Source: a virus. Taken from it: 28,464 nt of DNA. The notes under the pieces were generated by a model. It had not been told where the DNA came from. It ran no database searches and saw only the letters and a program-made list of their open reading frames with translations. Position 1 is the stretch's first letter. Each line of letters starts with the position of its first letter. Positions 10,022 through 24,019 of the stretch are shown piece after piece. A program made the position numbers and the translations under genes. The stretch lies in the IMG/VR virus record IMGVR_UViG_3300040815_002608, positions 1-28,464 of that record; one strand, 5' to 3'.

Positions 10022-11514
10022 TGGCAATTAAAAGATATTTCGCAGAAGCGGACAATACAATAACAAATGCATTTCAAGAAAACCTCACAGTTAGAGGCAC
10101 AGGCTCTAATATGGGCCAAGCAGATATCCTTGAAGTGTTCTCAATCTATGCACAGGAAAGTTCAACTTCGACAGAACTCGCTCGCATCTTGATCAAGTTT
10201 CCAGTTGATGATATCCAAACAGATATTGACAACGGAGTTATTCCAAGCACAGGTGTAACATATCACCTCAAGATGTTCAACGCTCGTCATCCGTGGACTC
10301 TCCCAAAGAACTACGACCTTGAGATTCTCGCTGTATCTGCGTCTTGGGAAGAAGGAAATGGTCTTGATATGGAGAACTATTCTGATGAGACATATGGAGG
10401 TATTGGTTCAAACTGGGTCAATGCATCTTCTGGTGCTGCATGGGATGAGCAAGGTGGAGACTATCATGCTTCTCCGTTTTTTCTTGCTTCATTTGACAAA
10501 GGCGACGAAGATGTTGATGTCAACGTTACAAGTCTTGTAGAAGAATGGCTGGATACTACAAAAGAAAATCATGGCTTTGGTATCAAACTTTCATCTTCAT
10601 ATGAAGCCTCCTCATCAGCAAACCCTTCTGGTGCTGAGATATCATATTACACAAAGAAGTTCTTTGCTCGTTCTTCTGAGCATTTCTTCGATAGACCTGT
10701 ATTGGAAGCACGTTGGGATTCAACAAGACGAGATAATCGTGGTAATCTCTACTTCAGTTCTTCTTTGGCTCCTGCTGCTGAGAACCTAAACACACTCTAT
10801 ATGTATAACTACATTAGAGGAAAACTTCGCGATATTGCTGGAGATTCTGCCGCTAGACCCGTTCTAAACCTTTACAAGTCTTCTGGGTCTGCCCCTGAAG
10901 GTGACGCGCTTTATTTCCGTGATTCTTCCAACAATGCGGTAAATTTTCTTTCTGCATCACGAGAAGACACTGGGGTTTACAAAGCAACCTTCTCTGTAAC
11001 AGGTGGAGTTGTTGATACAACCTATCCATACCTTGTTGATGTTTGGACAATGTCTGGGAGTGAACTCCATACAGGTTCGGTTATCGTTCCTAACGACCAT
11101 GGCTTCTCAAACTATAACCCGAACACCAAGTATGTTGTAAACGTCAAGAACCTCAAGCCAAAATACACAAGAGGTCAAACTGAGCGTTTCCGACTTTATG
11201 TGAGAGAAAAGAATTGGTCTCCGAACATTTATACTGTTGCAAAGTCAACACCGGAGAACACATTGATAGAAAGTGCATCGTATCAAATAACGAGAGCACA
11301 AGATAAGAAGATAGTGATACCATACGGAACTGGCTCAACTGCTGAGACCATGCTTTCATATGACTCTGATGGAAACTACTTTGATTTAGATATGGACTTA
11401 TTAGAGGCTGGATATACTTACGAGTTGAAGTTGTCTTTCTACGAAGACTCACTATCGTCATACAGAGAACAGCCCTATACATTTAAAATCAGAGTAGAAC
11501 AAGATGAGTATTAA
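10021..11514 (+). CDS. Tail/baseplate protein with N-terminal DNRLRE-like domain
   Basis: A 497-residue, beta-rich protein. Residues about 45-215 match the DNRLRE / CBM96-type jelly-roll pattern: TELARILIKFPVDDI (51-65), then ASWEEGNGLDME, and VDVNVTSLVEEWLDTTKENH (from residue 165) leading to GFGIKLSS. Next come an FFARSSEHFFDRPVLEARW strand, an Ig-like middle part and a second beta domain from about 375 (RGQTERFRLYVREKNW) to the end. DNRLRE domains are linked to carbohydrate binding and to cell-surface or extracellular proteins. In this position the protein is probably an adhesin-like baseplate component or an adaptor between the wedge and the large receptor-binding proteins. Overlap with both neighbours (1 nt upstream, 11 nt downstream) indicates coordinated translation; AAAGGGA lies 10 nt before the start. 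Ligand and exact role are not visible. Confidence 0.75.
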   Translation: MAIKRYFAEADNTITNAFQENLTVRGTGSNMGQADILEVFSIYAQESSTSTELARILIKFPVDDIQTDIDNGVIPSTGVTYHLKMFNARHPWTLPKNYDLEILAVSASWEEGNGLDMENYSDETYGGIGSNWVNASSGAAWDEQGGDYHASPFFLASFDKGDEDVDVNVTSLVEEWLDTTKENHGFGIKLSSSYEASSSANPSGAEISYYTKKFFARSSEHFFDRPVLEARWDSTRRDNRGNLYFSSSLAPAAENLNTLYMYNYIRGKLRDIAGDSAARPVLNLYKSSGSAPEGDALYFRDSSNNAVNFLSASREDTGVYKATFSVTGGVVDTTYPYLVDVWTMSGSELHTGSVIVPNDHGFSNYNPNTKYVVNVKNLKPKYTRGQTERFRLYVREKNWSPNIYTVAKSTPENTLIESASYQITRAQDKKIVIPYGTGSTAETMLSYDSDGNYFDLDMDLLEAGYTYELKLSFYEDSLSSYREQPYTFKIRVEQDEY

Positions 11515-14500
11515 AAGTTTATTTAACAACAAGACAAAGACAGTTGAGAATGCTTCAAGCGGAAGTGCAGATGTAGAGTCAAAAGACTTCATTCTCTCAA
11601 CAACGCAGCGTAATGAAACGTTCCAACCGTTCATTGACTTTGCTTCTGCATCCAACTTTGCAAAGTTTGGTTCAGCCGAAGAGTATTACAAGAACGCTAT
11701 TGAGAGAATTCACAATGAGTATCCATATGATGGCTCTGAGAATGAGAAACTTCAATTCGAACTCTCATCGTCTTATCTTGACAAGTATATTTTAGATAAC
11801 CGATACCCAAAGACAAACGGTTATATCAACCTATCACACGGTGGATGGGGAACTCAACAGTCTGAAGCTGACGGTTATGGTTTGTCTGATAACAATGAAT
11901 ACATCTTCATGAGAGGTGGTATTCATGTTCCCGATGAAAATACAGACTCTGAATTGAGAAAGTGGTTTGATAAGTCTGTCGTGTATGATGAAGATAAAAA
12001 CAGAGTATCAAGTCTCAAGATGGACTTAGCTCAAGGTATCACAACAGAGTTCTGGCTAAAGAAAGATGCATTTGATCTTGCAAAGACCGAGAAAGAAGTT
12101 ATCCTTGACCTTTGGAATGGTGAAGCATCATCCTCGTCTGACTATGGTCGTTTTACTCTTGCTCTATCCGGTACAGCAAATGGCGAAGATACTTTCATCG
12201 TGACCCTGCAATCTGGAACTGACGGTTTCTATGAGCAGTCTATCGGAACAGCAACAGTTACAACCTCATCACTATCTGATTGGCATCACTATGCTTTGAG
12301 TTTTGTATCCGCTTCTTCAACCATCACAGGACGCTTGTATGTTGACGGAGAACTTAACGAGAGCAAATCTCTTGGTTCAACAGGTATTGACGAGATTGGC
12401 GGTCTTATCAATGGTTACATCGGCGCTCTTCAAACTTCACCATCTGGTTCATCTGCTGTTCAATACGCTGGCAAGCTAAGTGCAAGCATTGACGACTTCC
12501 GTTATTGGAAGACCCGAAGAACCTCAAGACAAATTTATAATAATTGGTATCGTCATGTTGGCGGTGGAACAAACACAGATGACGCAAACGTATATCTAGG
12601 TGTATATTATAAGTTCAACGAAGGAGTTGTTGGTAATACTTCTATAGACTCCAGTGTATTAGACTACTCAGGTCGACTTGTAAACGGTTCATGGACAGGT
12701 TATTCTTCTGGTGCTCGTTCAACTGACTCTGCTTTCGTTGAATCTGGACTTTTAACTTCCGAACCTAAAGACCCAATCATCTATAGCTCACATTCTGATG
12801 TTGTGTCTCTAAAAGAAGAATTGATGACTTCTGGTAGTGCACATGATCGTGAAAATCCTGCTCTGCTATACAACAAGGTTCCACAATGGATTAGAGACGA
12901 AGATGAAGCAAACGACTTCACAACAAAGAAATTATATCAAATCATTGCTAGCTACTTCGACACACTTCACGTTCAAATTGGAGCGTTGCCTCATCTCAAG
13001 AATAAAGTATATCCGGAGTCAAATTACAAACCTTTACCTTTCGCCGACCGTTTGCTTGAAGACAAAGGTCTTATCGTAGCAAACCTTTTTGCTGACTCTG
13101 ATGTTTTGGAAGCATTTGGCGACCGAGACCTCAATCAAGTTCAATTTGAGAAGAAAGTAACTGATATCAAGAACCAAATCTATACAAATATCTATAACAA
13201 CCTTGAAGACATCTATAAACACAAAGGAACAGAGGGTGCTATTCGCAATATGCTTCGTTGCTTTGGTATCGATGATGAACTGGTCAAACTAAACGTATAC
13301 ACAGATGAAGGAACTCACTACTTCTCGGATGCTTTCAAACATACAAGTATCAATAAGAAGTATGTTGATTTCAACAAGAAAGAGAATCTTGGCGGCTCTA
13401 TCTTCCAAACAAGCTCTGCTAATCACTCATTGACTTATACTTCAGGCTCCGGAGATGAAAAACTTGAGCAATACAATGCTATGTCAAGTGAAGTATCTAT
13501 TATTGCACCAAAGAAACTTGGTTTTTTCGATGAAGGTCACTTCGACACACCATTCCTAAGTGCATCTGTATTTGGTATGCACACTGCTGGGCCTGTATCC
13601 TCAGACTATACTTGGGGCGCATCTGCAACAATTGAGACTCCACAATACGCTTCCATACCATTTGATATGGTTACAAGTTCTAGTTTAGAGCATCAAGCAG
13701 AATTAGAGTTAACAGCAGGCTCGGATACAGCGCTTATTGTTTCTGCTGATCCAAATCAGGCTTTAACAACAGATCCATCAACAATAGATCATATTATCTA
13801 TACAGGTTCATATGGTCTCGCATTTAGAGCCAGTGGTTCAACAGGCGGCGCAAACGGACCATTCGCAAATCAGAACTCATATTCTGGTGCAGACAAATCT
13901 AACCTATCATTGACTTTTTGGCTATCTGGCTCTGGTGAAAACGCTCCATCTGATACTGTCCTATTTGTGTTTCAAAGAAATACATTGCCACGAGATGTTT
14001 TCGCATTGACAGTTAATAATGGAGACTTCGAAGTTTTTATATCCTCTTCTGGAGGTACAAACACTATCACTTATGACACAAACCACGCAATTGCTGATGG
14101 TTGGACTCACTACGCTCTTGTATTTAGCGACACAACAGAACCGGTGATGTATAAAAATGCTAGCCTTGTAACAACATCGGGATATTCAGATCCAGGTGGC
14201 ACTGTCGCTAACATTCAAAGATTCTTGGTTTACTTAGACGAAGAAACAGCATATCAAGATATTGTTGTTTGGACTAAACAGCTTACTTCTGCAGATGTAT
14301 CCAACCTGTATGGTAACGGAAACTGGGTCAATCCTACTTCTGTAAGTGCGTCATCAATTAATGACTGGTATAAGTACGGCTATGAAGACTATTGGTCTGG
14401 CTTAGGTTTTTCCGAAGGCGATACTCTGGGTGCCTCAACTTATACTATCTCATCTTCATACTCTGCTGGCTCTGGAAATGACTTGGGTATCTTATCTAGT

Positions 14501-17500
14501 ACGAGAGCACAACAGTTTAAGTTCACTTTAGGTAATAACCCTTTCGGAGATGCTAAGAGTGACACCACAATAAGAAACGAATTGACTGCTGCTCTCAATA
14601 ATGTATTCTCAGCAAACTTTGGGAACACAACTTATACTGGAGCAGATGGCGCAACAGCAACCTTTACACTTCAATCCGGCTCAACAGGCCCAGCAACTGT
14701 AAGTGCCTCTGAAGTATCATCAAGCTTTATTATCGGCACTCTGAATGACGGAGATCCTTTGGAAACAGTCATCGATGGCAACGACACTGCTAACTTCCAA
14801 GTCTATTTGGTAAGAGATGAACTTGAATCATCAAGCGGTAAGTTCTTGCTTAAAGATTACGATGGAAATATCACACTTGAGAGTCCGGTATATAAAGAAG
14901 TATACTCTAACGAGCCTTGGAATATCTCGGTGAGAGTAAAGCCGGAAGACTATCCTATCGCTGGTAATGTCGTAACCTCATCAAACAGAGACTACGTGCT
15001 TGAGTTTTACGGAGTAAATCATGCTTTTGATACAGTAAAGAATGAATTCTTCTTAACACAAAGTCTCAACTATGAAACTGGTTCTGCTTACCTGTCAAGT
15101 GCAAAGCGCTTCTATGTTGGTTCTCACAGAACAAACTTTACAGGAAGCGTTCTAGAACAAACAGATATCAAAGCAGGTCGTTTCAATCTATGGTATGACT
15201 ATGTTGGTAATGATGAAGTCAAACTTCATAACAGAGATGTATCAAGCAAAGGTAACAAGCGAACAGCGCGTCCTTCCACAATGTTCTCAAAGGACTTGGA
15301 AGGCTACGAAATACCAACTTATGAATTGCTAGCAGCAGATTGGGACTTTGAATTGGTATCAACATCAGATAGTTCTGGTGAGTTCATAACTGTTGACGCA
15401 TCAAGCGGCTCAACTGATACACGATATGGTTGGATAGACAACATTGTAAGACGTGAACATAGAGCAAAAGGCTTTGGCTTCCCTGCTTCTACAACTATCG
15501 CTGCGAATGAAATCGTATATTCATCAAAGAAAGAACTTCCTGAGATTGGCTATAGCGCTGATGGTGTGACTATCAAAGGAGAACAAGAAGAATACTTCAT
15601 CGAAGATGAAGATGTAAGTGATAACTTCTATGCTCTTGAGAAGAGCATGTATCAAACCATCTCTGAAGAAATGATGAGAACACTTTCAACTGCGCAAGAA
15701 ATGTCAAACCTCATGGGTGAGGCTGTTGAACGATATCGTCTTGAATACAAGAAACTCAATCATGTTCGCCGTATGTTCTTCGAAGATGTTGAGCAAGATC
15801 CAGACTTCGATAAATTCACAGAATACTTCAAGTGGATTGACTCTTCGGTATCCTATATGGTATCTCAGATGTTCCCAATGAGCGTTCGCTTCTCAAAAGG
15901 CATCTCAGATGTTGTTGAATCTCATCTGTTTGAGAGAAACAAATATCAAAACAAGTTCCCACTGATCACAACTCATACAGCGACAGAAGGCCGCGCAGTT
16001 GGTATCGGCCAATCGAAATACCGTTGGGAGTTCGGACATGCGCCTGTTGAAGCCGGCGCTGGAGACAATGATAACTGTCTATGGCAAAAGGAACGCGCTG
16101 AGAGAACCGACATCCCTGAGCGTGAGACCATAAGACAAGTTATTGGTAATAGAAACAATGCAGAAGGTACAACTGTATCTGGTAGTAGCGGTCTATACAC
16201 AACATCAACATACGGTATTCGTCGTTTCTCCGAGACAATACAAATGAAGTCCGTGATATCTCAAACATTCCATCCGGGTATTAACTCAACATTGCAGAAA
16301 GATAGAGACTATGTTTGGTCAACAACACAAAGACACTCTTCATTATCAAGCGAAGGTTTTCCTGTTAACGTTCTTCTCGTTGGAGCAGGTGAAGGTCAAG
16401 GTATTGAGTTGCCTGTTGAGTGTGATGATGTTGAGAAGCCAAACCAAAAGAAAAAGTTCAACACCATCGTTAACGTTGGTAAACACTCTGAGGGTTCACC
16501 AGGCGGTACATTTACACCCATAGATGATTCCAACTCATATGAATACTCTGTAAAAGGTGCCTTTAAGCTTCCGTTTGAGATCTATTCTGGCTCTGTTACA
16601 ACCGGTTACAACGCTAGAATATCTTCTGGATATAAGTCTGATGCTGTTGTAACAAACCTGCACACAGATACAACAGACTTCTCAAATGATATTCCGTTGC
16701 AAGGTCCATTTACACAGCAGTGGGTTGGTGGCCACCAAGCAAGACATGTTGACTTGAACAGATATGATACTTCTCTTTATGATGAGGAAGCAGAAGCTGC
16801 GCCTGCAAATAATATTCACAACCTTTATACGAGACCAGAAGCATGGAGATTCCTTGTTGTTGAATCTGGTGGAGACTCCGATGGCGCTCTTGGTTTAACA
16901 GATCCACAATATGGTGTTACGGCAATCTTCGGACATCCGAACTCTGGAAGCTATCCTGATGCTGCTAAAAAAGCAGCCACATTGTATAGAGATGGCCGCA
17001 CAAAACGCGCTATGAACATCGCCAATATACAAACCACTACCTCAAGTGTTAACCACGGAAATTTCACGGAAAATTACGAAATAGTGAGTGTTGCTGGTGG
17101 CAAGAAAGAGAACAACCTGTTCTTCCGGAAGAATAGTGAGACACATGACTTTTTACCTGATGCTATTGGCGATATTCTTCCTGAGACAACGAACTATCAA
17201 ACATTGATTGGTGTATCCAACCATCCAAGTGGAAATGTGTTTGGCGTTGGGGAATCAAATATATTGAATGCTGTCGTAGAAAATGCACTTGAGGGTTCAC
17301 CTGCATCGATGTCCTTTATAATGGCTGCTCCAACTTATATATCACAACAAACAGCCCCTTCGTTTTTAGAAGTAACTGGGGCATCAACAGAGGTATTGGT
17401 TGAGACGGTAAATACAGAGACCTATGATACTGGTACGGATATAATAGTTGAGTCAAATAGAAGAGCTTTTAGATCATTTGGTACCTCAGAAGCATTATCA

Positions 17501-19114
17501 GTTGATACATCCTATAGTGGCCTCGGTTCATCAGATTTTTCCATATCATTTTGGATTAATAACATTAGTTCTGATGCTTCTACGAACACTAGGGTAGAAT
17601 TACGAGACTCTTCTGGTCAATATCTATACAAGATTGATATGGATGACAATATAGTTATCAATGTAAGAAGTGGCTCTTTAGGAACTCCTGGAACAGCCAC
17701 CTATACCACACAATTAGCCGGTGTTAATGGTGGTCAATGGAATCAAGTTATAATAAGATTTCCAATTGGCGATTTAAGAATGCCACCAGATCTGACTATG
17801 AATGGTACCAACTACACACCATCAGGATATTCTCATAATGGAGGAGCCCCAGGGACAATCGATAAATTATATATTTTCCTTGATGATCAATATGGTATAC
17901 AAGACTTTGTAACTTGGGATACTCTTCTTAATACATCCCAAGTTACAGAATTATATAATTCAGGAGACTGGTATGAACCATATCTACACTCAGCAGAAGG
18001 AAACATTGTTGATTGGTATATGATGGGCAACGAAGACTATTGGAAAGAAATAGGCTATAATATTGGAGATGCTTTATCTGATATTGGGGGCTCTGTAACA
18101 CGCTATATATCTTCAAGCTACGGCACAGGAGCAAACGATTTATTTTTAAGTTCCATATATGCAAGTCGCTTTATATTCACTCCGGGAGAAGGTTTACTCA
18201 GAAACTTACAAGTTTTTTCGGGCTTAAGAACATCTCTATCTTCCTCATATCCAGACTTCACTGTTTCATATGATATTGATGGAAGTCAAGAATTTGCTTC
18301 GTATGAAATGATTTACAATAATACTTCTTCAGTCGCTGTTGATCTTAATATCTCTAGCACAACAACACCTTTATTTGGTTTAGCTTCAACAGTCGATGCA
18401 GTGCCAGCGACCATAGAAACCGGTTATTTCAACACAACAACAATAGCGACCGAGAGCGTAACAAGAACCATTATATCATCTCGTTTCTCTGCTCCCGGCT
18501 CTATCGACACATTGACTTATGGCTTCTTAGATGCATACTCTCAAGAATACTCAGTATATAACAGTCTCAACTACCGTAACCTTTCCGTTCGTGGAGCGGC
18601 GGTTCGTGTCTCATCTTCTGCTGATGGTTCTGACTTCTACAACTTTGGAGGCTCTGGTGAGGACGGAACAATAAGAGTTGATGACCATAGGGGTGAAAGA
18701 GACAGTCACAAAGCATTGCTATCTCGTCATTCCGGAAAGTTTGGTATTGACCCGCGATATGCTTCTGAGCTTGGCTCTGATCCATTAGAAGAAGCCAATC
18801 CTGATCCATCATTCCATAAACAACAACGCAATGAGAATAAAAGACCAACGGAGACTTCGACCATTTCATCGCCTGTCTTTGTAACGAGACACGACAATAT
18901 GTATGTGAACTCGGCTATTCCAAGATCTGATTTCCAATACAAGTGGGTAACTTCTTCACTTGGAGATAATTACAGTATTACAAGTGGAAAGCAAAGAATG
19001 TATGGATACGCACACCCAACAGGAATCCTAAGTTCATCTGTTGAGATAGATGGAGATTCCGGTTTCGTTCCGGCAATAACTTTCCCAACAGCCTCAGAGA
19101 TTTTTGGAGAATAG
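11504..19114 (+). CDS. Giant baseplate / receptor-binding protein with multiple LamG-like domains and a gpI-like helical segment (2536 aa)
   Basis: The start overlaps the previous gene by 11 nt. Domains in order: a conserved N-terminus; LamG-like domain 1, about 165-350 (GITTEFWLKKDAF, DWHHYALSF, DDFRYWK); a helical segment, about 455-600 (LYQIIASYFDTLHVQIGALP, IYKHKGTEGAIRNMLRCFGI), resembling the KGT region of P2 gpI-type tail proteins; LamG-like cassette 2, about 725-1095; a ConA-like scaffold domain, about 1097-1230 (NFQVYLVRDE, WNISVRVKP, RFYVGSHRTNFTG); a helical region, about 1390-1500; a beta region; LamG-like cassette 3, about 1946-2315; and a C-terminal domain beginning near SRFSAPG (2326). 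LamG folds commonly bind glycans, so host recognition is likely. The gpI-like part and its place after gp6/J suggest it also joins the baseplate wedge, like T4 gp7 or P2 gpI. No chaperone, protease or signal-peptide motif is seen. Family function is not established. Confidence 0.8.
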   Translation: MSIKSLFNNKTKTVENASSGSADVESKDFILSTTQRNETFQPFIDFASASNFAKFGSAEEYYKNAIERIHNEYPYDGSENEKLQFELSSSYLDKYILDNRYPKTNGYINLSHGGWGTQQSEADGYGLSDNNEYIFMRGGIHVPDENTDSELRKWFDKSVVYDEDKNRVSSLKMDLAQGITTEFWLKKDAFDLAKTEKEVILDLWNGEASSSSDYGRFTLALSGTANGEDTFIVTLQSGTDGFYEQSIGTATVTTSSLSDWHHYALSFVSASSTITGRLYVDGELNESKSLGSTGIDEIGGLINGYIGALQTSPSGSSAVQYAGKLSASIDDFRYWKTRRTSRQIYNNWYRHVGGGTNTDDANVYLGVYYKFNEGVVGNTSIDSSVLDYSGRLVNGSWTGYSSGARSTDSAFVESGLLTSEPKDPIIYSSHSDVVSLKEELMTSGSAHDRENPALLYNKVPQWIRDEDEANDFTTKKLYQIIASYFDTLHVQIGALPHLKNKVYPESNYKPLPFADRLLEDKGLIVANLFADSDVLEAFGDRDLNQVQFEKKVTDIKNQIYTNIYNNLEDIYKHKGTEGAIRNMLRCFGIDDELVKLNVYTDEGTHYFSDAFKHTSINKKYVDFNKKENLGGSIFQTSSANHSLTYTSGSGDEKLEQYNAMSSEVSIIAPKKLGFFDEGHFDTPFLSASVFGMHTAGPVSSDYTWGASATIETPQYASIPFDMVTSSSLEHQAELELTAGSDTALIVSADPNQALTTDPSTIDHIIYTGSYGLAFRASGSTGGANGPFANQNSYSGADKSNLSLTFWLSGSGENAPSDTVLFVFQRNTLPRDVFALTVNNGDFEVFISSSGGTNTITYDTNHAIADGWTHYALVFSDTTEPVMYKNASLVTTSGYSDPGGTVANIQRFLVYLDEETAYQDIVVWTKQLTSADVSNLYGNGNWVNPTSVSASSINDWYKYGYEDYWSGLGFSEGDTLGASTYTISSSYSAGSGNDLGILSSTRAQQFKFTLGNNPFGDAKSDTTIRNELTAALNNVFSANFGNTTYTGADGATATFTLQSGSTGPATVSASEVSSSFIIGTLNDGDPLETVIDGNDTANFQVYLVRDELESSSGKFLLKDYDGNITLESPVYKEVYSNEPWNISVRVKPEDYPIAGNVVTSSNRDYVLEFYGVNHAFDTVKNEFFLTQSLNYETGSAYLSSAKRFYVGSHRTNFTGSVLEQTDIKAGRFNLWYDYVGNDEVKLHNRDVSSKGNKRTARPSTMFSKDLEGYEIPTYELLAADWDFELVSTSDSSGEFITVDASSGSTDTRYGWIDNIVRREHRAKGFGFPASTTIAANEIVYSSKKELPEIGYSADGVTIKGEQEEYFIEDEDVSDNFYALEKSMYQTISEEMMRTLSTAQEMSNLMGEAVERYRLEYKKLNHVRRMFFEDVEQDPDFDKFTEYFKWIDSSVSYMVSQMFPMSVRFSKGISDVVESHLFERNKYQNKFPLITTHTATEGRAVGIGQSKYRWEFGHAPVEAGAGDNDNCLWQKERAERTDIPERETIRQVIGNRNNAEGTTVSGSSGLYTTSTYGIRRFSETIQMKSVISQTFHPGINSTLQKDRDYVWSTTQRHSSLSSEGFPVNVLLVGAGEGQGIELPVECDDVEKPNQKKKFNTIVNVGKHSEGSPGGTFTPIDDSNSYEYSVKGAFKLPFEIYSGSVTTGYNARISSGYKSDAVVTNLHTDTTDFSNDIPLQGPFTQQWVGGHQARHVDLNRYDTSLYDEEAEAAPANNIHNLYTRPEAWRFLVVESGGDSDGALGLTDPQYGVTAIFGHPNSGSYPDAAKKAATLYRDGRTKRAMNIANIQTTTSSVNHGNFTENYEIVSVAGGKKENNLFFRKNSETHDFLPDAIGDILPETTNYQTLIGVSNHPSGNVFGVGESNILNAVVENALEGSPASMSFIMAAPTYISQQTAPSFLEVTGASTEVLVETVNTETYDTGTDIIVESNRRAFRSFGTSEALSVDTSYSGLGSSDFSISFWINNISSDASTNTRVELRDSSGQYLYKIDMDDNIVINVRSGSLGTPGTATYTTQLAGVNGGQWNQVIIRFPIGDLRMPPDLTMNGTNYTPSGYSHNGGAPGTIDKLYIFLDDQYGIQDFVTWDTLLNTSQVTELYNSGDWYEPYLHSAEGNIVDWYMMGNEDYWKEIGYNIGDALSDIGGSVTRYISSSYGTGANDLFLSSIYASRFIFTPGEGLLRNLQVFSGLRTSLSSSYPDFTVSYDIDGSQEFASYEMIYNNTSSVAVDLNISSTTTPLFGLASTVDAVPATIETGYFNTTTIATESVTRTIISSRFSAPGSIDTLTYGFLDAYSQEYSVYNSLNYRNLSVRGAAVRVSSSADGSDFYNFGGSGEDGTIRVDDHRGERDSHKALLSRHSGKFGIDPRYASELGSDPLEEANPDPSFHKQQRNENKRPTETSTISSPVFVTRHDNMYVNSAIPRSDFQYKWVTSSLGDNYSITSGKQRMYGYAHPTGILSSSVEIDGDSGFVPAITFPTASEIFGE
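13680..14788 (+). repeat. LamG-plus-tail cassette, copy A (inside the 2536-aa protein)
   Basis: Encodes about residues 725-1095. It has a LamG-like fold (YGLAFRASG at 770, NLSLTFWLSGSG at 800, GWTHYALVFSD, DIVVWTKQLTSADVSNLYG at 919). A distinctive tail follows: DWYKYGYEDYW (954-964), ISSSYSAGSGNDLGILSS (982-999) and a small beta module. The same layout recurs in copy B (17341-18450). Identity is at protein level; the DNA copies are diverged. By hand count, Phe is TTT in about 11 of 19 codons here, against roughly 9 of 31 in the scaffold at 15000-16600. Confidence 0.7.
17341..18450 (+). repeat. LamG-plus-tail cassette, copy B (inside the 2536-aa protein)
   Basis: Encodes about residues 1946-2315 with the same order as copy A: AFRSFGTSEALS (1988), DFSISFWINN (2011), DFVTWDTLLNTSQVTELYN (2134), DWYMMGNEDYW (2170-2180), ISSSYGTGANDLFLSS (from 2202), then a small beta module. 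Codon choice is richer in TTT, TTA and ATA than the flanking scaffold (Phe TTT about 10 of 13 by hand count). It ends just before the conserved-looking IISSRFSAPGSID segment. Confidence 0.7.
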
Positions 19115-19115
19115 A

Positions 19116-22100
19116 ATGGCGTATTATTTAGACTTTGTTGGATTGAATACATTTATTTATGAACCTGTGGGATATGACGAAGAAACACAATCTAATCCTA
19201 GTTTCAGAGAATATTTAACTCTTCCCGGCAACCGTGGTCTTACTCAAAATACATTTGGCATTAATCTTGTTGGGTTATTAGCAAAAGACGGAATACAAAA
19301 CTATAAAAATTATCTCTTCTCACACGAACTTCCGACAACCGCATCATTTTTTCCTGCTCTCATGCTTAAAAGAAATGGACCATACGGTTTTCCAACTTGG
19401 AAACAGATAAGAATAAGCGAAAACCCTTTGTCTCGTAGACAACGCAAAGAGAATGTTTTTACGTTTATCAAAGAGCCCGGCGAAGAGTTTGTGTTCAATA
19501 ACAACGGTCGACTCAACACTCTGAGGTCTAGATATGGCGCTATTCAAAAATATACCGAAAACCCCGTATCTTCCCGATTCAAGCCATTTGTTGTTGGTGG
19601 AGCAACTATTGTTGACGATGGAACAGCCGAGCGTTTTGAGATTGTTGGTTCTTATGGTAACGAAACCCTATTCTTCAACAATGAAGAAATAAACAAATAT
19701 TACAATTTAAGACATTTGAGGTCTCGTCAATATGAGACCGTCAAAGACTTTTATCTTAACGGAGGGCTTGATAAGGATGGCTCTCCACTTGACTCGTTTG
19801 AATTTCTGAAGTATGGCGAATGTGTTTATCCTCCTCGTGTTCATCAATACAAAAATTATGTGAGACAGAGAACAACTTTCTCATTTCCATGGAGAGACAA
19901 TAGAGAAGATAGAATAGAAGAGGTTTCTGACCAAGGCTTTGGTTCTGCTGTTACACAAAGCATTTGGCCTATGGATGCTTATTCCACTTGGGATACATAC
20001 GCAGAAGACTCTTATAATAGATGGGGCTTAAATGGCGTATATGGGTATACTAGAAATGACGATCCGCACACTGATTACGGTATTCTACAGAACCAGTATT
20101 CTTTTGGGTATTCTCTTATGCAGATTAACTTAGGAGCAGGTCAAATAGATAATATCTTAAGAGCAGCCCCTCAATATAACCGAAAACACACCGTTACTAT
20201 ATCGTCTTCTGTTGTTTCTCCAAACGGAATGAACATTGAAGGTATAAACACAGGCACAACAATGGGGAATATGGGAACTGATAGTGAAGATGGAATTGGT
20301 ATTCCCGGTGGTGAAGCAAAATGGGAGGCTGGTTCTCAATCTGGGTTAAATCCGTTTTATGATTCCTACGACAAATATATTCAAGGAGTCAAGCAAGCCG
20401 GAAAAGAATATTCAATCATTCCGGAATTTAGAATTAGCGATCACGTTGAGACTTACGAATCCAAGGGGGTTACTGAGGATATAGAAGGATTATTTTCATT
20501 AACAGGTGCATTATCAAATACAGCAGATTCGTCAAAAGATAATTTCTACCAAATATACTCAACAAGCGAATTTATGAAGCATTTTGAAGTTGTAAAAGAA
20601 GACCACAAAGAATTCGTACCAGCGAGTTCAATATCTCTTAAATGTAAGGCTATAAAAAAGTTTCTCCCATACGAAGGTTTTTATCCTGCTCAACGTTCTG
20701 TTGATTTAGCAAAACAGTTTTATGATTCATACTCTACATATACCGCGCTTTCCGGCGCAGAAGACAATTATGGTACCGCCAGTACTGCTCCATATTTATT
20801 TCAAAATCTTATGGTTCCAACATTTGCTCCCGGTATCTTTTTCAATACAATAAAATCTGGGGTTGCTGTTGATTATCCTTTGGTGGAAGCCACAATGAGT
20901 CTAGCTACAAATGTGACTCATAGCAACAATAATTATTTTATAAAAGGAAATCAGGATGATACGCTGTTTACCAAAAGAATTCCTTTTGAAGCATTAGTTG
21001 AACCAGAAAAGCATCTTGCTGGGTTTGATATTTTTTGTAATGAACCTCACAGATACGCCAATAATTCTGGTTCTGTTAGTTGGTCCGGAGAGGGTAATAG
21101 TCGTTTTAAACTTATGTCAAATAACTTTTTAGCAGAAGTCGCAGACTTCTTTATGCAAAAAAAAGTTTTTACAACAATATCTTCTCGCCCCTCAAGTGAT
21201 CCCAACACCGGTATTGCTCAAAATGGAAAAACTTACGCAATGCGTGTAAAGATGTATAAAAGTAAAGACCAAGCAACGATACCAAGAGTTTCTCAAGGAC
21301 GAGGAGATTATACACCTCCACAACACCCATCATCATCTCGCGAAACATTTACTATGTACTCAAGACCAACGGCTTTTGGTCCTCCACAGTGGCTATCGGG
21401 TTCAGGTATATTTGCAAGTGTTGATATGGGTTTGGGTGAGCAAGGTGAGAATTATGCTTTTACACCTCCCTATTATTATGGAGAAGCATGGGCTGATATA
21501 TCTTTTACTCCATCTCAGACAAAAAAATATACCATCTCTGAAATAATAAAAGATTCAACAGTTCAATATTATAGATATAAAGAGATAGAAGATACATTTG
21601 ATGAAGGAGCAAAAAGTTTTTTTATCGAAAAAAACTCCATGGATCTTTCTGCAACTGTTAATTTATTCTCACAATCTGATTATAGTGAAGAACAAATAGC
21701 AGAAGGCAGTCAAGTAGTACAAGATGCTAGTGAAAACCCTTCTCGTTGGGTCATACAGACCAAATTTGAAACCCCAATGTTAAATTTTAATCACCTCTCA
21801 GCATCAGATAGTGTCACACTTCCAAACAATGCTTCTCAATCTGTCCCCCGTGGAATGTGGCATCAATATGGCCTCATCGAAGAAGATCCAACAAAGGGTA
21901 TTTTCCTGCAAGTTACGGATATACCTGACTTATGGATTGAAAATGTTGTTGGAAACGATTCAGGTGATTATGAATCTTTAGCGGACCTTTGTGGCTTTTC
22001 AACAGAAGCAAAACGTCTCGGAGAGATAGCAGATGAGAAGAAGATAAGCGAAGCAGTTGTTGCGGTACCATTTATTGAAGAAGAAGGGCAAAGAAAATTC

Positions 22101-23075
22101 TTCCGAATACCTCGTATTGATATAGAAAGAGCGTTTGGAGGTTCAGTTAGCAGAAGTTTAGTAGGAGACTCGGTTCTTAAAATGGTCTCAAAAATGCAAA
22201 ACTATGTACTTCCTCCACCTATGGACTTCATTAACAACAGTAATATTGACCCATTCGCTATGTATATTTTTGAGTTCTCGCACACTCTCAAGAAGCAAGA
22301 CCTTGCAAATATATGGCAAAACCTATATCCAGAGATTGGCCAAACATTTGAAACAGCAGAGTCAACAGTATCTCATGAACTATTAGCACATGAACTATTA
22401 GGCGGCGGCGCAAAACTAAACCCACAGGGTACACTTGATGTAAATGCTGTGGGTAACGAAATTCCGAATAAAGTTCGTTGGATGGTTTTTAAAGTTAAAC
22501 AAAGAGCGGCTATAAATTACAACAAAAGAATCATCGGAAGACAAAACATAGATATTTTTGAAGAAAATGCTCCCAAAATATCTTATAATTGGCCTTATGA
22601 CTTCTTTTCTCTGGTTGAATTGGCCAAGGTTGAAGCCGAAGTTACATTCTCTGAAAGACTGGTTAAGTCCGGACAAGAACCTCGTGAAACTATTGTTCCT
22701 AAATACGGTACAAAATTCTTCGGTGAAGGAACCTCTATAGATGCTGCGAATAAAGTAGGTATTGATGAGGGAGCAAGAACTAGATCAAGTCAACAGAGCG
22801 CGGCTGAAGCTCAACGTATACGTGATGAGGTTGAAGCGGAACGACTAGCTTCTTTGAACGAGTTCGGAAGAACTCCAGAAGAAGCAGAGGAAAGAGCAAG
22901 ATTGAAATCTGAATATGCCCTCGGAACTGGTGAATATTTGGGTCGAACAACAAGCGGTGGTAGAATGACCAAGAGAATGACCAATTCAGATTATGATGGT
23001 GATGGTAAAAGAGATCCTGAAGATGGTGGTTATGACCCAACAGACATAAATAATGATGGCTCAACGGAAACATAA
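19116..23075 (+). CDS. Large tail structural protein with acidic calcium-loop-like C-terminus (1319 aa)
   Basis: The start at 19116 (MAYYLDFVGLN) has GGAGA at 19106-19110 and follows the upstream stop by 1 nt; an in-frame TTG at 19104 is rejected. No characterised family is recognised. Conserved-looking islands are RNGPYGFPTWKQIR (86-99), RWMVFKVKQRAAINY (1121-1135) and NWPYDFFSLVELAKVEAEV (1158-1176). From memory, these occur in large proteins of uncultured marine phages and in the same neighbourhood. The body is mixed beta with many Tyr, Phe and Asn. After about 1200 it changes: a charged helical stretch (about 1224-1268, AAEAQRIRDEVEAERL) and a Gly/Arg linker, then DYDGDGKRDPED (1292-1303) and DINNDG near the end. 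The latter resemble thrombospondin type 3 or dockerin calcium loops. No signal peptide is seen. It is probably a virion tail component, and this is inferred from context. Codon choice is somewhat more TTT/TTA/ATA-rich than in the upstream gene. Confidence 0.72.
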   Translation: MAYYLDFVGLNTFIYEPVGYDEETQSNPSFREYLTLPGNRGLTQNTFGINLVGLLAKDGIQNYKNYLFSHELPTTASFFPALMLKRNGPYGFPTWKQIRISENPLSRRQRKENVFTFIKEPGEEFVFNNNGRLNTLRSRYGAIQKYTENPVSSRFKPFVVGGATIVDDGTAERFEIVGSYGNETLFFNNEEINKYYNLRHLRSRQYETVKDFYLNGGLDKDGSPLDSFEFLKYGECVYPPRVHQYKNYVRQRTTFSFPWRDNREDRIEEVSDQGFGSAVTQSIWPMDAYSTWDTYAEDSYNRWGLNGVYGYTRNDDPHTDYGILQNQYSFGYSLMQINLGAGQIDNILRAAPQYNRKHTVTISSSVVSPNGMNIEGINTGTTMGNMGTDSEDGIGIPGGEAKWEAGSQSGLNPFYDSYDKYIQGVKQAGKEYSIIPEFRISDHVETYESKGVTEDIEGLFSLTGALSNTADSSKDNFYQIYSTSEFMKHFEVVKEDHKEFVPASSISLKCKAIKKFLPYEGFYPAQRSVDLAKQFYDSYSTYTALSGAEDNYGTASTAPYLFQNLMVPTFAPGIFFNTIKSGVAVDYPLVEATMSLATNVTHSNNNYFIKGNQDDTLFTKRIPFEALVEPEKHLAGFDIFCNEPHRYANNSGSVSWSGEGNSRFKLMSNNFLAEVADFFMQKKVFTTISSRPSSDPNTGIAQNGKTYAMRVKMYKSKDQATIPRVSQGRGDYTPPQHPSSSRETFTMYSRPTAFGPPQWLSGSGIFASVDMGLGEQGENYAFTPPYYYGEAWADISFTPSQTKKYTISEIIKDSTVQYYRYKEIEDTFDEGAKSFFIEKNSMDLSATVNLFSQSDYSEEQIAEGSQVVQDASENPSRWVIQTKFETPMLNFNHLSASDSVTLPNNASQSVPRGMWHQYGLIEEDPTKGIFLQVTDIPDLWIENVVGNDSGDYESLADLCGFSTEAKRLGEIADEKKISEAVVAVPFIEEEGQRKFFRIPRIDIERAFGGSVSRSLVGDSVLKMVSKMQNYVLPPPMDFINNSNIDPFAMYIFEFSHTLKKQDLANIWQNLYPEIGQTFETAESTVSHELLAHELLGGGAKLNPQGTLDVNAVGNEIPNKVRWMVFKVKQRAAINYNKRIIGRQNIDIFEENAPKISYNWPYDFFSLVELAKVEAEVTFSERLVKSGQEPRETIVPKYGTKFFGEGTSIDAANKVGIDEGARTRSSQQSAAEAQRIRDEVEAERLASLNEFGRTPEEAEERARLKSEYALGTGEYLGRTTSGGRMTKRMTNSDYDGDGKRDPEDGGYDPTDINNDGSTET
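22374..22401 (+). repeat. Short tandem repeat coding HELLA-HELLG
   Basis: CATGAACTATTAG occurs twice (22374-22386 and 22389-22401) with a 15-nt period, giving HELLA then HELLG at residues 1087-1096. Being a multiple of three, it keeps the frame and looks like a small local duplication in a loop before a GGG turn. Confidence 0.75.
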
Positions 23076-23086
23076 GGTAACATAAT

Positions 23087-24019
23087 ATGACATTTTTTAA
23101 TAAGAAAGAAGACGTTTTAAAAATTGAGTTAACACCTCACGGTAGAAAGTTATTATCTCAAGGCAAACTTATGCCTTCATATTATGCTTTTCTTGACGAT
23201 GATATTCTTTATGATGCATCTCAGGGTGGCGTATCAGAGAACAACTCTCAAAGCAAACAAAGAATACTCTCAGAAACACCATATATGAAGCCTCAGACGA
23301 ACTACAAGGGCGTTGACTCATCAAAGAGTGATATGAGCACCAAAGCAGAACAAGCGACGTTTTTACAGCAAAAGATTGGCTCTAATAACACAGCAGAGTC
23401 AAGAGCAACAGGTTGGAATGTTACAGCACTATTGGGCGAGATAGAGTCCTCACAAAATGCTCTATCAGGTTCAGATGTTGCAACTCAACCAATACCACAA
23501 CTTGAGATGGAACTCAATTATACAATGTCAGCAGGGAACGCAGCAAATCTTGAAATAGCAAACCAAGGTCTCATGTTTAACAGACAACTTCCAACGCTTG
23601 TTAAGCCAGACGGCTCATTTGTTGATATCGTTCCAGAGCAAATATTGCTTAATATATTTGAGCGTAATGGCTTCTTCCACAAAGACTCATATGAGATTGA
23701 AGTGTATCTATATGAACAAGATGAAACACAGATCGATAGAAAGCTCAAGTTCTTCGAACAAGATACACAAATCAAAAACAACATGTTGGTGGATCAGGAA
23801 ATTCAGTCAGATGAAGACATAACAAATGAATTTGTGGAATACTATTTAGATATTAGCGTAGATAAAGAGATTCCTGAAGAGGACATTTGCAAGGGGTTGA
23901 GAAGGTTGAAAGCAAAAGATATTTTCTTAGACATTGAAATTGAATGTCCAGACCGCGATGATATTGATGTGAATATCTACGGCACAAGAGTTAGAAACGA
24001 AGATTTGGAGGATTGCTAA
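23087..24019 (+). CDS. Phage structural-type protein of unknown function (310 aa)
   Basis: The start follows the upstream stop by 11 nt, with AAGG at 23074-23077. The N-terminus (MTFFNKKEDVLKIELTPHG, then GKLMPSYYAFLDDDILYD) is a distinctive pattern that I remember from conserved hypothetical proteins in marine phage genomes; no function is known to me. A low-complexity Ser/Gln/Asn middle (residues 45-150) separates it from a C-terminal region rich in Asp, Glu and Ile (DEDITNEFVEYYLDISVDKE), ending in a Cys-containing acidic tail (EDLEDC). There are no membrane segments or catalytic motifs. Its place between two large tail proteins, with its stop overlapping the next start (TAATG, 24017-24021), suggests a small tail or baseplate adaptor made together with them. 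Confidence 0.62.
   Translation: MTFFNKKEDVLKIELTPHGRKLLSQGKLMPSYYAFLDDDILYDASQGGVSENNSQSKQRILSETPYMKPQTNYKGVDSSKSDMSTKAEQATFLQQKIGSNNTAESRATGWNVTALLGEIESSQNALSGSDVATQPIPQLEMELNYTMSAGNAANLEIANQGLMFNRQLPTLVKPDGSFVDIVPEQILLNIFERNGFFHKDSYEIEVYLYEQDETQIDRKLKFFEQDTQIKNNMLVDQEIQSDEDITNEFVEYYLDISVDKEIPEEDICKGLRRLKAKDIFLDIEIECPDRDDIDVNIYGTRVRNEDLEDC
24007..24011 (+). promoter_or_regulatory. Ribosome binding site fixing the start of the 934-aa gene
   Basis: GGAGG lies 7 nt before the ATG at 24019. It selects that ATG over the in-frame TTG at 24013, which lies only 1 nt from the site. It is inside the last codons of the 310-aa gene, so translation is probably coupled. Confidence 0.8.

Follow-up and report, generated by a model that had tools for sequence, protein, structure and literature searches.

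Genomic context of the 1319-aa protein

The window, a 28,464-nucleotide stretch of viral DNA, contains an ORF at positions 19104-23075 that holds a 1319-aa protein, with the start codon ATG at 19116 and the stop codon at 23073-23075. The initial annotation described an acidic, calcium-loop-like tail on this protein, and the ORF, its frame, the motif DYDGDGKRDPED and the hexamer DINNDG are as described there. The two nearest relatives of the window protein, encoded at the loci L002 and L003, are 79% and 65% identical to it overall. The features considered are the following:

11504..19114, + strand: 2536-aa protein, encoded upstream
19116..23075, + strand: gene for the 1319-aa baseplate-module protein, with its stop codon; residues about 75-1178 form the core and residues 1179-1319 the variable tail
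19338..22649, + strand: conserved core, residues 75-1178
22650..22754, + strand: proximal part of the tail, residues 1179-1213; 22/35 identical to L003
22755..22982, + strand: charged predicted helices and Gly/Arg linker of the tail, residues 1214-1289
22983..23036, + strand: conserved acidic island NSDYDGDGKRDPEDGGYD, residues 1290-1307; 17/18 identical to L003
22989..23024, + strand: calcium-loop-like motif DYDGDGKRDPED, residues 1292-1303
23043..23060, + strand: second acidic hexamer DINNDG, residues 1310-1315; present in L002, absent from L003

Upstream of the 1319-aa gene lie genes for a gp25-like baseplate wedge protein (Pfam GPW_gp25, E 3e-10) and a gp6-like wedge protein (phrog_219, E 4e-23), which assign the 1319-aa protein to the baseplate module of a phage with a contractile tail. 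A relative of the gp6-like protein (32% identity) also occurs, amid a similar order of genes, in Flavobacterium phage immuto and Microcystis phage Mel-JY01; the 1265- and 1336-aa proteins of these two phages were considered as homologues of the 1319-aa protein and rejected, as they do not align with the core profile. Among nine proteins scanned on the contig of L002 (G001) were products of terminase, portal, primase, RuvC-like and SbcC-like genes. At the left edge of the window, positions 3-257 encode the C-terminal end of what we take by eye to be an M15/VanY-type peptidase (SNHGWGLAFDF ... EAWHIQW). An antisense ORF at 22780-23073 was rejected as a gene, with its counterpart stopping after about 74 codons in L002 and a stop codon present in each minus-strand frame of L003.

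The 2536-aa and 1319-aa genes are separate and overlapping in the window (11504-19114 and 19104-23075). In 62 of the 79 relatives analysed, the core and a match to the 2536-aa protein lie within one ORF of at least 2,200 aa, with the match often covering only part of the 2536-aa protein, as judged from the eight rows shown. At 14 further loci a second ORF holds the match, which is also the arrangement seen in the window; at the remaining three the core ORF starts at the edge of the available sequence. This distribution suggests that gene fission or fusion links the two proteins, which would work as one unit in a permanent partnership, and the single-ORF arrangement makes the 2536-aa protein the probable physical partner of the 1319-aa protein.

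Conserved core

Relatives of the 1319-aa protein are encoded by 300 viral stretches, from which 79 distinct loci (80 rows) were analysed; the core is common to all 79, and the tails described below come from this subset. The core alignment comprises 60 of the 75 ORFs that reach residue 1170, together with the window protein. A search of the core family from a distant member gave 19 loci, several of them on contigs already in the set. The AlphaFold2 model of residues 1-1190 has a pTM of 0.83 and a mean pLDDT of 80, with residues 1 to about 75 mostly below 50. Its final core strand spans residues 1164-1179, and the core match ends between residues 1176 and 1198 in 71 of the 79 loci, in agreement with the initial annotation, which had put the end of the core near residue 1180.

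The full-length protein has no match among 50,697 phage records and no Pfam family at E <= 1, and the core finds no match in the PDB, either by profile or by Foldseek at E <= 0.001. The best VIA-align match, to a Klebsiella phage baseplate cup chain, has a Z of 4.8 over 124 residues, a level at which the program warns that a merely common arrangement may be reflected. The core thus resembles no solved fold convincingly. At E <= 0.001 its fold has eight matches, all of them predicted viral proteins and none with a named function; these include A0A516M7I0 from an uncultivated virus (TM-score 0.81, 38% identity) and A0A0F7LAZ6 from an uncultured marine virus. One further core relative (L094:5001-6503, 37% identity over residues 728-1178) sits in a 2.8-Mb contig labelled as a WOR-3 bacterium MAG, and may belong to a prophage or reflect a mis-assembly; a single labelled contig is too little to name this bacterium as the host.

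Variable C-terminal tail

Beyond residue 1178 the relatives diverge, and their tails are unrelated. Tail statistics were computed for 69 of the 79 loci, leaving out six hand-chosen near-duplicates and four ORFs that run off the sequence edge. These 69 tails range from 0 to 204 residues with a median of 63, and contain 0.0% Cys and few aromatic residues. Endings in Gly-Tyr or Asp-Tyr were dismissed as a feature of the family, being no commoner in tails (5/69) than in long ORFs of the same loci (22/237). The initial annotation had asked whether relatives lack the last ~120 residues, and 77 of the 79 loci indeed have short or unrelated tails (L063 among them is cut at a contig end). By eye, L024, L067 and L094 end in an extension that is longer and of less low complexity, with L024 and L094 resembling each other, which suggests that the C-terminus of the core family acquires modules repeatedly.

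The tail was modelled with 39 of the 67 listed core pieces together with the window, L002 and L003 sequences. The model places helices at about 1217-1250 and 1254-1268 (fragment numbering plus 984), where pLDDT block means rise as high as 92, and a low-confidence Gly/Arg/Thr linker after them, so that the charged helix and Gly/Arg linker read earlier from the sequence are borne out. The 76 residues preceding the island are 25-38% identical to L003, namely 7/28 at residues 1214-1250 and 15/39 at residues 1251-1289. Apart from phrog_34744 at E 0.26, the sole PHROG near the 1319-aa protein is phrog_25888 (unknown function), which matches a 158-aa C-terminal piece at E 0.012 over residues about 1216-1298, mainly in the helical stretch; we judged this match to be compositional. 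When the window is compared with L002, residues 1214-1250 (22755-22865) are 19/37 identical, whereas all 35 residues before and all 69 after them match; this short patch of divergence possibly stems from recombination.

Occurrence of the acidic island

At residues 1290-1307 the tail carries an island with the consensus NSDYDGDG(K/R)RDPEDGGYD across its carriers. The hexamer Dx[DN]xDG reads DYDGDG in the window, L002 and L003, and all three have Asp at loop positions 9 and 12 and Arg at loop position 8. The full pattern DxDxDGxxDxxD is found in two of the 69 tails of relatives, those of L002 and L003, and would be expected by composition 0.0007 times in their 5,460 residues. At the DNA level, the degenerate pattern of the motif occurs once in the window and on average 0.00 times in 100 shuffles. 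Loss of the acidic positions in relatives was named in the initial annotation as a refutation; those of the first motif are kept in both tail carriers. DINNDG, which it placed at the extreme C-terminus, is absent in L003. The tail is clade-restricted and DINNDG is not conserved.

The pattern DxDGDGxxDPxD is encoded in 57 viral stretches, from which 58 ORFs were read; two of these belong to the core family (L082 and L086, the contigs of L002 and L003) and the others are different proteins or reading-frame accidents. A scan with the alignment of the three tails returned seven loci, of which two are the contigs of L002 and L003 and the other five have tails without the motif. L012, L004 and L041 are without the island, and L016 as well as L039 and its near-duplicate L040 have a tail hexamer and not the full motif. 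A search for a further copy of the island in the window, G001 and G002 found none, the next local score being 39 as against 103-106. Both G001 and G002 have a looser hexamer of the same type inside one unrelated ORF, and the hexamer by itself therefore lacks specificity. In another protein, L085:3175-3210 encodes DWDGDGIRDPND 25 residues from the C-terminus of an ORF weakly resembling Peptidase_M15_4 (E 0.0033, below the cut-off); this may be a calcium loop of a lysis-type phage enzyme.

Selection and origin of the island

Between the window and L003 the island differs at seven codons, six of them synonymous, and the single protein change is a conservative Lys to Arg substitution. The nine nucleotide differences fall 1, 1 and 7 at codon positions 1, 2 and 3. 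In 20,000 column shuffles of the tail alignment, identity at 17 of 18 residues was reached once. Nei-Gojobori (NG86) estimates of dN and dS against L003 are 0.06 and 1.26 for the island (dN/dS about 0.05), 0.68 and 1.12 for residues 1179-1289 (0.61), 0.19 and 2.24 for core residues 901-1178 (0.08) and 0.26 and 1.73 for core residues 75-900 (0.15); these ratios are rough because of the few sites and high dS. In a core tree of 15 of the 61 rows, with L010 as an arbitrary outgroup, the window, L002 and L003 are grouped with a support of 0.992, and their sister L012 is without the island. The island was thus probably gained once in one small phage group and then kept. Since the window and L002 are amino-acid identical over the last 69 residues, the three carriers represent two independent lineages at most. 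Near-identity amid a diverged linker, mostly synonymous changes and a tree that fits a single gain together argue that the island is selected at the protein level: it is real and under purifying selection, while the linker drifts.

These data bear on two rival explanations. The tail could be a neutral, freely varying disordered end whose island is alike in different lineages merely through recent recombination. Hypervariability across relatives (0-204 residues) and the mosaic pattern, in which the window and L002 share their last 69 residues but diverge at 1214-1250, would fit such an origin. However, six synonymous codon differences among 17 identical residues speak against recent DNA transfer between the window and L003 islands, and we consider this explanation improbable. 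Alternatively, the conserved stretch could serve the next gene, which starts at 23087, as a nucleic-acid signal such as a promoter or ribosome site; in favour of this, the island ends 50 bases upstream of that start codon. The concentration of differences at third codon positions and a distance to the next gene that differs between the window and L003 both run counter to a DNA or RNA element, which makes this proposal very unlikely.

A third explanation accepts selection on the protein and dispenses with calcium. The island would then be a short acidic docking peptide for a basic surface of another phage protein, its richness in Asp and Gly mimicking the spacing of a loop. Conservation reaching past the loop ligands (NS before, GGYD after) is as expected for a recognition peptide, and the conservative nature of the lone substitution and the low predicted order are also compatible with one. 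On the other side stands the exact DxDxDGxxDxxD spacing, which composition would so rarely produce in the examined tails. We regard a calcium-independent peptide as a possible, though rather unlikely, account.

Comparison with known calcium-binding families

The initial annotation had likened the motif to thrombospondin type 3 and dockerin calcium loops. A loop of the Dx[DN]xDG kind, with its acidic positions kept in L002 and L003, stands up to comparison, whereas membership in either of the two named families is not supported. The thrombospondin type 3 repeat has the spacing DxDxDGxxDxxD, like the motif in the window; however, tandem repeats are absent here, where a single full loop is conserved and the second hexamer of the window and L002 is missing in L003. 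An unrelated viral protein, L084, has seven such acidic motifs and is nearer to the thrombospondin type 3 repeat type.

Dockerins have two conserved calcium loops with a helix after each. The tail would be a true dockerin if it bound a cohesin in another virion or host protein, and the two Dx[DN]xDG hexamers of the window and L002 would fit this. The two-loop feature fails in L003, which has one hexamer, and AlphaFold2 predicts no helix of four or more residues after either hexamer. No cohesin was found at E <= 1 in G000, G001 or G002 (0/3; none known complete), with a control search detecting cohesin in 2 of 14 named genomes. With listing up to E 10, neither the 37-aa end of the window protein nor the 26-aa end of L003 drew a Pfam model for EF-hand, thrombospondin type 3 repeat or dockerin, though these are short queries and the filters drop most weak matches. 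A dockerin is accordingly an extremely improbable identity for this tail. The only weak Pfam match to the tail end is FG-GAP, below the cut-off, and among PDB sequences this end matches calcineurin B best (E 0.23).

A canonical EF-hand has a hydrophobic Ile, Leu or Val at loop position 8 (PMC3123361), and the Arg found there in all three carriers sets the motif apart from that class. A close likeness is that to the Dx[DN]xDG linear motif surveyed by Rigden et al. (2011; PMC3123361), with which it shares the hexamer type as DYDGDG, further acidic residues three and six positions later and a convergent, narrow occurrence. The cases described in that survey are crystallographically ordered, whereas the window loop lies in a predicted flexible C-terminal tail. 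Excalibur-like motifs of disordered proteins (PMC8391695) likewise show EF-loop-like acidic spacing without flanking helices; Excalibur itself reads DxDxDGxxCE, while the window motif is without Cys and has Asp-Pro. The phage lysin LysGH15 also contains an EF-hand-like calcium loop, but in an enzyme whose activity is calcium-dependent and not in a structural tail (PMC4022735); the likeness drawn here is one of description. In lactococcal phage p2, calcium acts on the baseplate before infection (PMC3499812). This is an analogy only. Phage p2 is of a different kind, and calcium there swings the receptor-binding heads downward.

A putative calcium loop on a flexible tail

The explanation most consistent with the retention of the first-motif acidic positions in both tail-carrying relatives, through mostly synonymous changes, is that the island forms a functional Dx[DN]xDG-type loop. 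In this interpretation, to which we give roughly even chances, a single such loop on a flexible, clade-specific tail would contact a virion protein or the host surface. According to PMC3123361, Dx[DN]xDG binds Ca2+ nearly identically in 16 structural contexts, some of them without regular secondary structure before or after the loop. The ion is held by Asp side chains, by the carbonyl of the residue that follows the hexamer and by later ligands whose spacing varies. The motif has arisen repeatedly by convergence, the newer examples being narrowly distributed. In the present protein, Asp 1292, 1294 and 1296 and the main-chain carbonyl of Lys 1298 would hold one Ca2+, with Asp 1300 and/or Asp 1303 as later acidic ligands. 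AlphaFold2 assigns the loop block means of 43 and 55, a low confidence that neither proves nor disproves calcium binding because the program models no ion; the region shows three-residue helical turns only, again with low confidence.

The last ~140 residues would form a flexible, probably surface-exposed extension of a baseplate-module protein. Binding of Ca2+ would turn its disordered end into a small rigid knob in contact with either the host surface or another protein of the virion. The label of one relative suggests a marine origin, and seawater contains about 10 mM calcium. If the host lives in seawater, as is likely, calcium at millimolar levels would be enough to fill even a ~100 micromolar site outside the cell, in which case the role of the loop would be structural rather than sensing. 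EF-loop-like motifs of disordered proteins bind Ca2+ at about this ~100 micromolar level (PMC8391695).

A more far-reaching scenario is speculative and, taken as a whole, rather improbable. The loop would give a giant baseplate-associated protein, encoded by two genes, a C-terminal docking tip that is ordered by calcium. This tip would be folded at high outside calcium and loosen as calcium falls, and would thereby provide a detachable or gated contact in attachment. The hypervariable C-terminus would then be a general socket for lineage-specific contact modules.

Implications

Within the literature covered, no report turned up of motifs of the thrombospondin type on virion proteins or tail fibres of phages. 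Among the matches listed, papers on EF-hands or calcium in phage proteins concern, by title, mostly lysins, and two tail depolymerase papers (PMC5539073, PMC10581125) mention EF-hand once each. Should the loop bind calcium, a widespread motif, Dx[DN]xDG, would have become established at the C-terminal end of a structural protein of a phage. It would also lie in a flexible context, of the kind that PMC3123361 says the motif does not occupy, an absence which that survey links to its dependence on crystal structures. In this large, unclassified family of proteins the C-terminus stands out as the site of lineage diversification, and it offers a lead on how uncultivated phages change their contacts.
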